Assembly: GCA_945906905.1 (NCBI GenBank)
Contig: CAMDSM010000003.1
Coordinates: 1 to 33,170 of the forward strand
DNA: 33,170 bases
Direction: 5' to 3'
DNA from: Altererythrobacter xiamenensis
GTDB lineage: Bacteria; Pseudomonadota; Alphaproteobacteria; Sphingomonadales; Sphingomonadaceae
In this document: positions 10,930 through 30,485 of the stretch, one piece after another
How positions within the stretch are numbered: position 1 is the first letter of the stretch
Layout: every line of letters starts with the position of its first letter
Notes under the pieces: model-generated
Databases searched by the model: none
What the model was told of the DNA's origin: nothing
What the model saw: the letters and a program-made list of their open reading frames with translations, nothing else
Position numbers and translations under genes: made by a program

Positions 10930-12183
10930 ATGATCATGTTCAAATTGGCGGCGCTGGCGCTGGCCGCCACGCTGCTTACCAACCCCGCCATGACCCAGAC
11001 GGACCTTGCCGCCCCGCCGGGCTTGTGGGTCGCCAGCTGGACCGCCAGCCCGCACGCACCGCTGATGGCTGAAGGCCCGTTCGCCGCCGCCAGCTATGAC
11101 AATGTCACCATCAGCCAGATCTTGCGCCTGAGCGAGGGCGGCAACCGCCTGCGTGTTCGGCTGACCAACCGCTATGGCAGCGGACCGCTCGCCATCGGCC
11201 GCGCGCGGATATTCCAGATCGACGATGCGGGGGCCGAGGTTCCCGGCACCAGCCGGATGCTCACCTTCGGCGGCAACACTGGCGCAGTGATCCCGCGTGG
11301 AAGCCCCTTTGCCAGCGACGTGGTCGCCCTCGAACTGCCCGATCTCGCCCGCATCAAGGTGGAATTCCACCTGCCCACCCCCACCGGACCGTGCACCTGC
11401 CACCTCACCGGGCAGGATGTGCTGGCGGTCTCGGCCCCCGGCGATCATGTGGGTGAGGCGTGGGAGCCTGTTTCCACCTCCAGCACCCGCGCCTTCCTGC
11501 AGACGGTGGAAGTGCTCAGCCCCGATGCGAGTGGCACCATCGTCACTTTCGGCGATTCGATCACTGATGGCGTCGGCTCCACTCCGGGTGCCAACCGCCG
11601 CTGGCCCGATATTCTGGCCAATCGCCTGCAGGAGGCGGGGCTGGAATATGCCGTCGCCAATGCCGGGATCAGCGGCAACCGCGTGCTCAGCCCCGGCATG
11701 GGCGAAAGCGCGCTCGCCCGGTTTGACGAGGACGTGCTGAGCCTGCCCAATGTCACCCATCTGATCATTTTCGTCGGCGTGAACGATATCGGCAACCGCT
11801 TTGGCCAGATGCCGCGCGGAATGAGTGCCCTCATGCTCGATCAGCCCGCAATTGATGCAGACCAGATGATCGCCGGCTACCGCCAGTTGATCGACCGCGC
11901 ACGGGACCGTGGTATCGTCGTGCTCGGATCGCCCATCGGCCCCTACAAGGGCGCGGGATATTGGAGCGAGGAAGGCGAGGCGGCGCGCGTGGCGATCAAC
12001 GACTGGATCATCAACAGCGGCGAGTTTGATGGCGTGGTCCGGCTCGACACCGCTTTTGCCGATCCGGCCGATCCGGCACAGATGCGTGATGGCTATCACA
12101 TGGGCGATTACCTGCACGGCTCGGATGCGGGCTTGGCTGCCGTGGGTGAATCCATCGACCTGACGCTGTTCGCACAATTTTGA
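10930..12183 (+). CDS. Secreted SGNH/GDSL-family hydrolase
   Basis: A 417-residue esterase or acetylesterase. After a signal peptide (MIMFKLAALALAATLL, cleavage near the AMTQ region) comes a beta-rich domain to about residue 195, then the SGNH domain. Block I is GDSITDG with Ser210, the oxyanion residues are in NAGISGNRV and FVGVNDIGN, and the C-terminal DYLH (DxxH) supplies Asp and His. The start could be ATG 10930 or 10936. Both have purine-rich sites (GGGAGA, AGAGGA), and the longer reading from 10825 would place the signal peptide internally. It probably removes acyl or acetyl groups from polysaccharide. The neighbouring secreted esterase fits a shared external role. Confidence 0.88.
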   Translation: MIMFKLAALALAATLLTNPAMTQTDLAAPPGLWVASWTASPHAPLMAEGPFAAASYDNVTISQILRLSEGGNRLRVRLTNRYGSGPLAIGRARIFQIDDAGAEVPGTSRMLTFGGNTGAVIPRGSPFASDVVALELPDLARIKVEFHLPTPTGPCTCHLTGQDVLAVSAPGDHVGEAWEPVSTSSTRAFLQTVEVLSPDASGTIVTFGDSITDGVGSTPGANRRWPDILANRLQEAGLEYAVANAGISGNRVLSPGMGESALARFDEDVLSLPNVTHLIIFVGVNDIGNRFGQMPRGMSALMLDQPAIDADQMIAGYRQLIDRARDRGIVVLGSPIGPYKGAGYWSEEGEAARVAINDWIINSGEFDGVVRLDTAFADPADPAQMRDGYHMGDYLHGSDAGLAAVGESIDLTLFAQF

Positions 12184-28681: not shown

Positions 28682-28742
28682 GCTTGATCTGGCGTTATCT
28701 GGTTCAGTGACAGTTCAATGCCCCGCCGCTAATGATGGGCGC

Positions 28743-29405
28743 ATGAACCATTTGAAAACCCACATCACCCGCATATTGGGCGCCGCATCAGTCGGCCTCC
28801 TTGCCCTGTCTGTGCCTGCCACGCTGGCGATCCCCGCCGCGCCCGCCGCCGCGCAGTCAAGCACGCAGCTAGACCGTGCGGTGCGGGCATTGCGCGCGAT
28901 CAGCACCATGCGCGCCAGCTTCACCCAGTCCGACCGCACTGGACAGACGGTAAGCGGCACGCTGACCTTGCGCAGCCCGGGTCGCATCCGCTTTGAATAT
29001 AGCGACGACGTCAACATGCTGGTCGTGTCCAACGGCTCCACGCTGACCATGGTCGACTATGACGTGCAGCAAGTGGAACGCTGGCCGATTCGCAATTCGC
29101 CGCTGGGCGCGCTGCTCGATCCCAATCGCGATGTCGTTCGCTTTGGCCGGCTGGTGCCGACAAATTCGGCCGGAGTGGTCTCGATTGCGGTGGAAGACCC
29201 CTCGCGCCCGGAATACGGCGAGATCACGCTGATCTTCGTCGAACGGGCCGGTGCCCCGGGCGGGCTGGAGCTGAACAGCTGGGTGGCGCTCGATTCGCAG
29301 AACAACCGCACCACCGTGCGCCTGTCAAACCACGCCTATGGCATGAGCGTTCCTGACAGTGCTTTCACCTTCCGCGATCCGCGCCGCTCGGGCCGTCGTC
29401 CCTAG
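28743..29405 (+). CDS. lolA: Outer-membrane lipoprotein carrier protein LolA
   Basis: Periplasmic chaperone that ferries mature lipoproteins from the LolCDE transporter to the outer membrane. The 220-residue protein has a signal peptide (1 to about 38, ending APAAAQS). The LolA fold follows: RALRAISTMRASFTQSDRTG, GTLTLRSPGRIRFEYS, GSTLTMVDYDVQQVERWPI and a C-terminal FTFRDPR. ATG 28743 is chosen because GATGGGCG lies just before it, and an upstream GTG (28707) would put 12 polar residues ahead of the signal peptide. Functionally it follows Lnt, encoded at 6092. Confidence 0.93.
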   Translation: MNHLKTHITRILGAASVGLLALSVPATLAIPAAPAAAQSSTQLDRAVRALRAISTMRASFTQSDRTGQTVSGTLTLRSPGRIRFEYSDDVNMLVVSNGSTLTMVDYDVQQVERWPIRNSPLGALLDPNRDVVRFGRLVPTNSAGVVSIAVEDPSRPEYGEITLIFVERAGAPGGLELNSWVALDSQNNRTTVRLSNHAYGMSVPDSAFTFRDPRRSGRRP

Positions 29406-29437
29406 CCCTCGGATCAAGGCCGAGCGGTTGTAGGTTT

Positions 29438-29491
29438 GCGACAAATTGCGACCGGTCATTCATTTAAACGACAGGCTGGCCTCCCTATATT
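29438..29491 (+). promoter_or_regulatory. Promoter with GCGACA direct repeat upstream of candidate sRNA
   Basis: TATATT (29486-29491) is a good -10. TTTAAA (29463-29468) sits 17 bp upstream as a weak -35. GCGACAAATTGCGACC (29438-29453) lies just before it and carries two GCGAC half-sites 10 bp apart, nearly identical to the repeat ahead of the two-component operon at 18482. A weak -35 with an upstream direct repeat suits activation by an OmpR-type regulator. Confidence 0.55.
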
Positions 29492-29496
29492 GTGTC

Positions 29497-29628
29497 TTGC
29501 AGGTCAGCTGGTGGACGCGGGTTTCCCCCCTGTTGCCCCCTCCGCCGCCAAGGCTGGCCTCGCAAAGCGTGACGAACGCTGAAGACGAACCCCCGTCCCC
29601 AAATGCCCCGGGGCGGGGGTTTTTCTTT
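29497..29628 (+). ncRNA. Candidate small RNA of about 130 nt between lolA and xth
   Basis: The expected start (6-7 bases after the -10) coincides with the base of a long stem: TTGCAGGTCAGC (29497-29508) pairs with GCTGGCCTCGCAA (29553-29565), one bulge and one G-U. TGGTGG (29509-29514) pairs with CCGCCA (29545-29550), leaving a C-rich apical region with CCCCCC and CCCCCTCC. A second hairpin is AGCGT/ACGCT (29566-29580), then an intrinsic terminator with a T-run. The overlapping frame 29446-29685 encodes nothing recognisable. I cannot assign an RNA family. It lacks the conserved signal recognition particle core, and 6S RNA is not excluded. Confidence 0.6.
29589..29628 (+). terminator. Strong rho-independent terminator
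   Basis: ACCCCCGTCCCC (29589-29600) pairs with GGGGCGGGGGT (29610-29620), one bulged T, followed by TTTTT-C-TTT (29620-29628). It ends the candidate small RNA and would also stop read-through from lolA before xth. Confidence 0.85.
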
Positions 29629-29681: not shown

Positions 29682-30485
29682 ATGATTTCTATCGCCAGCT
29701 GGAATATCAACTCGGTCCGCCTCCGCGCGGGGCTGGTCGCGCGTTTCCTGACCGAAGAAGCGCCCGATATTCTGTGCCTGCAGGAAATCAAATGCCAGGA
29801 ACCGCAGTTCCCCTATGCTGCGTTCGAGGCGCTGGGCTACACCCATTTCGCGGTTCATGGGCAGAAGGGCTATCACGGCGTGGCCATCGCCAGCCGCATT
29901 CCCATCCGCGAGGTGGCGCGCCACGATTGGCAGGCCAATGGCGAAGCACGGCACGTGGGGGTGGAACTGCTGGGGCCGCAGGCGGGCGCACTTGCAGGGA
30001 TGGTGCTGGAGAATGTCTATATCCCGGCGGGCGGCGATGCGCCCGATCGCACGATCAATCCCAAGTTTGGCCAGAAGCTCGATTTCCTCGAACGGATGAC
30101 CCAATGGGCCGGCACGCTTGATCGGCCGACACTGATCGTCGGCGATTTCAACGTCGCCCCGTTGCCCGAGGACGTTTACGATCACAAGGCGCTGCTGAAA
30201 GTGGTCAGCCATACGCCGATTGAGGTCGAAACGCTGGGCCGGTTCGCCGATGCCCACGGCTGGGTCGATCTGGGCCGCAAGCACCTGCCCGTGCCAGAGC
30301 GTTACTGGTCGTGGTGGTCCTATCGCACGTTCTGGCAGGAAAAGGATCGTGGTCGGCGGCTGGACCACATGTGGGCCTCGCCTGACCTTTCGGCGCAATC
30401 GCTGAGCCATCGCTTCGTCGAGGAAACGCGCCGGTGGGAAGGCCCAAGCGACCACGTGCCGCTGATTACGGAGTTTGCATCCTGA
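29682..30485 (+). CDS. xth: Exodeoxyribonuclease III (AP endonuclease family)
   Basis: DNA-repair nuclease that incises at abasic sites and removes 3' blocks. The 267-residue protein shows SWNINSVR at 6-13, Glu35 in LQEIKCQ, GDFNVAP at 154-160, RLDHMW with Asp228 and SDHVPL with His258, the full catalytic set of the ExoIII family. ATG 29682 is preferred over a TTG two codons upstream. The ribosome-binding site is weak. Its 3' end overlaps the conventional start of ribA by 52 bases. Confidence 0.94.
   Translation: MISIASWNINSVRLRAGLVARFLTEEAPDILCLQEIKCQEPQFPYAAFEALGYTHFAVHGQKGYHGVAIASRIPIREVARHDWQANGEARHVGVELLGPQAGALAGMVLENVYIPAGGDAPDRTINPKFGQKLDFLERMTQWAGTLDRPTLIVGDFNVAPLPEDVYDHKALLKVVSHTPIEVETLGRFADAHGWVDLGRKHLPVPERYWSWWSYRTFWQEKDRGRRLDHMWASPDLSAQSLSHRFVEETRRWEGPSDHVPLITEFAS

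Follow-up and report, generated by a model that had tools for sequence, protein, structure and literature searches.

We identified a predicted small RNA gene of about 130 nt at positions 29497-29628, on the plus strand, of the window (the whole 33,170-nucleotide stretch of DNA analyzed here). It is apparently a family-wide sphingomonad RNA gene, carried by almost all genomes of the family to which the window belongs, and the best reading of its sequence is that it represents a new RNA family of an already known kind, the base-pairing sRNAs with C-rich loops. We consider it probable that this is a stand-alone sRNA gene with its own regulated promoter and that its two C-rich loops pair with G-rich ribosome-binding sites.

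Boundaries and fold of the RNA

The gene sits in the gap between the lolA stop (29405) and the xth start (29682), on the same strand as both. Folded as RNA, 29497-29628 reaches -70.4 kcal/mol (z = -4.86), and none of 200 shuffled sequences was equally stable; a covariance model of the RNA (R1, see below) matches 29498-29625 with an E value of 7.6e-33. The predicted 5' end is at 29497-29499. The homologues support these limits, with a 5' end close to the base of the first stem and a 3' end at a T-tract. A sequence-only reading of the window had proposed a discrete RNA of about 130 nt ended by a terminator, and the fold, the terminator with its T-tract and the boundaries of the homologues agree with that proposal.

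The RNA begins with a 5' hairpin (29497-29565) whose stem, from the fold and the comparison of arms across homologues, covaries. This hairpin carries the ultraconserved C-rich loop UUUCCCCCCUGUUG (29522-29535), a putative first seed. A second hairpin, AGCGUGACGAACGCU, follows at 29566-29580, in agreement with the second hairpin of the earlier reading, and is near-invariant in homologues. The terminator scan, the fold and the homologues all indicate a strong intrinsic terminator with a T-tract at 29587-29628 (hairpin 29587-29622); its C-rich loop (29603-29609), AUGCCCC here and WUGCCCCC in most relatives, is a putative second seed. Two C-rich stretches had been singled out from the letters, and both are present: CCCCCC lies at 29525-29530, inside the 5' hairpin region, but CCCCCTCC falls partly in a stem and lacks conservation. 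It is UUUCCCCCCUGUUG and the terminator loop that are conserved as putative seeds.

The homologues contain no reading frame. Stops are common in all three frames, and the spacing between the loop and the second hairpin ranges from 26 to 36 nt, covering all three phases. A coding sequence is ruled out by these frame-breaking indels and stops.

Distribution and novelty

A DNA search recovered the element from 35 of the 37 genomes of the genus, and R1, built from 30 of the loci found in this way, matched 314 of the 396 genomes of the order. Within the window's own family (approximately 313 genomes), only four genomes were missing among the matches listed, and two of these were recovered by a sensitive search. 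Two nearly complete genomes of the same family (G317 and G352) have no full match to the RNA, which may reflect loss or strong divergence. Records with the exact loop bear the names Erythrobacter, Novosphingobium, Porphyrobacter, Croceibacterium, Pelagerythrobacter, Tsuneonella, Sphingosinicella and Sphingomonas. Neither the full-RNA model R1 nor the 5'-loop model R2 found a convincing member beyond the family; a wider alphaproteobacterial family was rejected, the weak outside matches being mostly terminator look-alikes. The loop match in L229 was attributed to chance, as were five of the 119 loci retrieved with the exact pattern (L070, L071, L085, L144 and L172).

The RNA had been put forward as an undescribed small RNA, and this description held: at Rfam 15 gathering scores, no family matched the RNA, either in the window or at eight homologous loci, and homologues with covarying stems were found. 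The only Rfam match in the homologous loci was a tRNA elsewhere in them, and the best sub-threshold scores in the window, at most half the cutoff, are weak chance matches. 6S RNA (RF00013) was considered and rejected; it has no match here, and the 6S-like match of this genome lies on another contig (G000:C36:9342-9509).

The RNA is not reported in the open-access literature that we searched, a search that the original Zymomonas sRNA list lay outside of. We take xth of Zymomonas ZM4 to lie at about 1.74 Mb, by our own estimate. This gene is ZMO1699 (PMC3712917). Northern-verified sRNAs exist in Zymomonas, and none of the ten sRNA coordinates printed in a report on them, which are the only ones compared, falls near the estimated position of xth (PMC6970203); the RNA may nevertheless have been detected earlier in that genus.

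Fixed loops on covarying stems

Sixty homologous loci (L001-L060) were fetched by overall similarity (30) or with the model (30), in neither case using the motif; some genomes are in both sets. Across all 60, the loop UUUCCCCCCUGUUG and the hairpin GCGUGACGAACGC were identical, as was GCGTGACGAACGC within the second hairpin, which recurs in 148 of 155 homologues. Selecting the best-scoring model hits favors close matches. Identity of the loop in the later 119 loci is not independent evidence because those loci were selected by the loop. A few genera have altered 5' loops (L184, L191, L194 and L195), and in the genus of L194 and L195 the 5' loops are degenerate and the terminator loop AUGCCCCC is retained.

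The stems are free to change. The stem below the first loop has about 20 pairs (16-25), and at most of its positions GC, CG, AU, UA and GU pairs were all seen among the homologues. On 103 non-redundant arms, 5' stems paired with their own partner at -22.7 kcal/mol, compared with -15.2 kcal/mol when arms were swapped between species and -12.9 kcal/mol when they were shuffled (Wilcoxon p = 1.2e-18). Terminator arms behaved similarly (own -29.1 vs swapped -19.4), with compensatory changes such as GUCCC/GGGAC, GUCGC/GCGAC, GGUCC/GGACC, GGACC/GGUCC and GUGCC/GGCAC. Pairing is kept in relatives while the stem sequences change, a check that the sequence-only reading had itself proposed, and the promoter is conserved too.

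Although its stem changes, the terminator loop keeps the sequence WUGCCCCC or one near it. Since terminator loops require no fixed sequence, the loop probably has a job beyond termination.

Sphingomonads, among them Novosphingobium, Erythrobacter, Sphingomonas and relatives of Zymomonas, are important degraders and bacteria of oceans and freshwater, and to our knowledge little is known of their riboregulation. The near-universal presence of the RNA in the family and a 14-nt loop that hardly changes point to a central regulator. The covariance model would annotate this RNA in hundreds of genomes, and the analysis names a gene that can be deleted, a seed that can be mutated and a candidate target to begin with.

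Promoter and neighboring genes

The -10 element TATATT anticipated by the sequence-only reading was found at 29486-29491 by promoter scan, which pairs it with TTTAAA at a 17-nt spacing; relatives have a TANNNT-like element at this position. The scan gave two promoter-like sites per 1.1 kb where 0.2 were expected. The -35 hexamer is poor and is not conserved in relatives. What is conserved around the -35 position is a pair of boxes, TTCAT and GACAG (29459-29474). In 145 of 155 homologues, the gap that separates lolA from the RNA has TTCA exactly 27 nt upstream of the TA of the -10 element; a G(A/C)AAG or GACAG box between the two is nearly invariant, and GCGAC occurs upstream in 122 of the 155 (28 after shuffling). 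This layout, TTCAT-N6-GMAAGC-N9-CCTANNNT across homologues, looks like a promoter controlled by a dedicated regulator. We infer that the RNA is made from its own promoter and ended by its intrinsic terminator.

Further upstream is a direct repeat, TTGCGACAAATTGCGAC (29436-29452, plus strand), a possible regulator site with a single exact copy in the genome. A near copy lies upstream of another ORF in the same genome (C165:4982-5008, L221) and may be a shared regulator site. Separately, near position 1501 of L213, L214, L217 and L218, from contigs C20, C47, C64 and C91 of this genome, there are intergenic palindrome-like sequences of the form GGGTGACA...GGGTGACAGGGTGTCACCC or closely similar to it, each with AT-rich DNA after it, which look like a dispersed repeat family.

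The constant neighbor of the RNA is lolA, on its upstream side (28707-29405, plus strand; Pfam LolA, PF03548; synteny). Wherever the flank of a homologous locus includes lolA, the RNA is directly 3' of that gene in the same orientation, usually within about 150 nt. Such an arrangement could arise if the RNA had no promoter and were cut from the 3' untranslated region of the lolA mRNA, but 145 of 155 loci have the promoter layout with its fixed 27-nt spacing in the gap behind lolA, and we regard this origin as very unlikely.

Downstream, xth (exodeoxyribonuclease III; 29682-30485, plus strand; Pfam PF03372) is the usual but not constant neighbor. In the window, about 55 nt separate the end of the terminator from the start of xth, which is on the same strand, and xth comes next in most genomes, as would be expected of a cis-acting leader or attenuator of xth. 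However, xth is 1.7-3.5 kb away in many genomes with a convergent gene after the RNA, and the constant neighbor is lolA. The next gene is convergent in L067, L075, L077, L079, L080, L131 and L074; it is an alkaline phosphatase (Pfam PF00245) in Erythrobacter- and Porphyrobacter-type genomes and a histidine kinase or metH, both named from sequence by eye, in others. Because convergent genes follow the RNA in several genomes, it is extremely unlikely to be a leader of xth. In L067, L075, L077, L079 and L080 the alkaline phosphatase lies between the RNA and xth, and this junction looks prone to gene turnover.

Proposed mechanism and candidate target

In the mechanism that we propose for a stand-alone sRNA, the regulated promoter would yield an RNA of about 130 nt ended by the intrinsic terminator, with two C-rich loops exposed, UUUCCCCCCUGUUG on the 5' hairpin and WUGCCCCC on the terminator hairpin. 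Both loops probably act as anti-Shine-Dalgarno seeds that pair with the G-rich ribosome-binding sites of several mRNAs, and seed pairing would then block translation in trans. We can only guess that the invariant second hairpin is a contact for a protein or chaperone.

Pairing of the C-rich loops with ribosome-binding sites is plausible, and one conserved candidate target was found. The first loop has CAACAGGGGGGAAA as its complement. CAGGGGG was counted 22 times at 2-11 nt upstream of an ATG in the window's genome, compared with 5 for the reversed pattern. One such gene encodes a CHASE2-domain cyclase (PF05226 and PF00211), which in this genome (G000) has CAGGGGGGAA a few nucleotides before its ATG. 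Homologues of the cyclase in 12 congeners have an upstream G-run of at least 5 in 10 of 12 and of at least 6 in 7 of 12, with start codons that are uncertain in several congeners; as the site in the window's genome was the reason for choosing this gene, the evidence comes from the remaining 11 congeners (9 with G5 and 6 with G6). An upstream run of G5 or longer was found for 10 of 163 lolA, 6 of 156 rpmG and 0 of 139 ribA control genes; xth would be an unfair control, as it is preceded by the terminator of the RNA itself. The mRNA of this adenylate/guanylate cyclase is the best candidate target found, with weak to moderate support from these comparisons, and its G-run could serve the ribosome alone.

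Other searches yielded less. Exact ACAGGGGGG sites in the window's own genome gave no clear target, and most other G-rich sites are not common to different species. A PotB-like ABC permease with a G6 site (L240) was rejected, as its close homologue occurs in one congener only and lacks the long G-run there. The G6 sites of six congeners revealed no second shared target. A bolder model, in which a core family sRNA silences the CHASE2-domain cyclase and other mRNAs with G-rich ribosome-binding sites via two interchangeable C-rich loops, the terminator loop being one, under a dedicated regulator binding TTCA-N7-GMAAG near the -35 position, strikes us as doubtful; if true, a core sphingomonad sRNA would control cyclic-nucleotide signaling.

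The C-rich loops could also bind protein rather than mRNA. The RNA might be a protein-binding or sponge RNA, its loops and invariant GCGUGACGAACGC hairpin holding a protein, as CsrA sponges do through other motifs, and mRNA pairing being secondary. Consistent with this, 148 of 155 homologues have the same sequence in the second hairpin, more constancy than the structure by itself requires, and the loops keep their sequence and not merely their C content. However, we know of no C-rich-loop-binding regulator of such a kind in sphingomonads. Fixed loops on free stems are also seen in the alpha-r14 RNAs, which act by pairing (PMC10746234). We therefore consider a sponge unlikely and retain the base-pairing sRNA as the preferred reading.

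Comparison with known small RNAs

The sphingomonad RNA has a poly-U terminator and one candidate target; Hfq-dependent trans-acting sRNAs bind Hfq and control mRNAs by antisense pairing. In RepG of Helicobacter pylori, a C/U-rich terminator loop is the seed and acts on a G-run; the sphingomonad RNA resembles it in having a terminator loop as the proposed seed, and the two are unrelated in lineage and sequence.

The CcsR or cuckoo RNAs of Rhodobacter have C-rich loops and, like the sphingomonad RNA, are small RNAs of Alphaproteobacteria. They are found behind DUF1127 genes, clustered, and arise by processing of a co-transcript that has an RpoHI/RpoHII promoter (PMC10253847). In contrast, the sphingomonad RNA is a single-copy gene behind lolA with its own predicted promoter, and its neighbors are lolA and xth, not DUF1127 genes. 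In an alphaproteobacterium of another family, L185:1516-1547 (G524:C3:~11542-11625) contains a hairpin, GAGGCGGC-CUUCCCCCCUGUUC-GCCGCCUC, with a terminator, right behind a small DUF1127-like ORF. Its loop is nearly the same and its stem and locus are different; it is perhaps a convergent cuckoo-like RNA.

GsrN of Caulobacter pairs with an mRNA leader through an exposed C-rich 5' loop (PMC5869019), and the sphingomonad RNA likewise has an exposed C-rich loop near its 5' end. GsrN is expressed from a sigma-EcfG promoter, usually near the general stress locus, its BLASTn matches are limited to Caulobacteraceae, and Erythrobacter litoralis is reported to have no gsrN-like gene (PMC5869019). By inspection, the promoter of the sphingomonad RNA, unlike that of GsrN, has no GGAAC element, and the neighboring gene is lolA.

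The closest working model for the sphingomonad RNA, in our assessment, would be alpha-r14/NfeR1 of Sinorhizobium meliloti, which silences mRNAs at the ribosome-binding site and has three loops that carry the ultraconserved CCUCCUCCC on stems whose sequence is free (PMC10746234). Both are alphaproteobacterial RNAs with conserved C-rich loops on stems of free sequence, a likeness and not a membership. The sphingomonad RNA differs in having no CCUCCUCCC, and has instead UUUCCCCCCUGUUG once and AUGCCCC/WUGCCCCC in the terminator; it also has the invariant GCGUGACGAACGC hairpin, another locus and no Rfam match.
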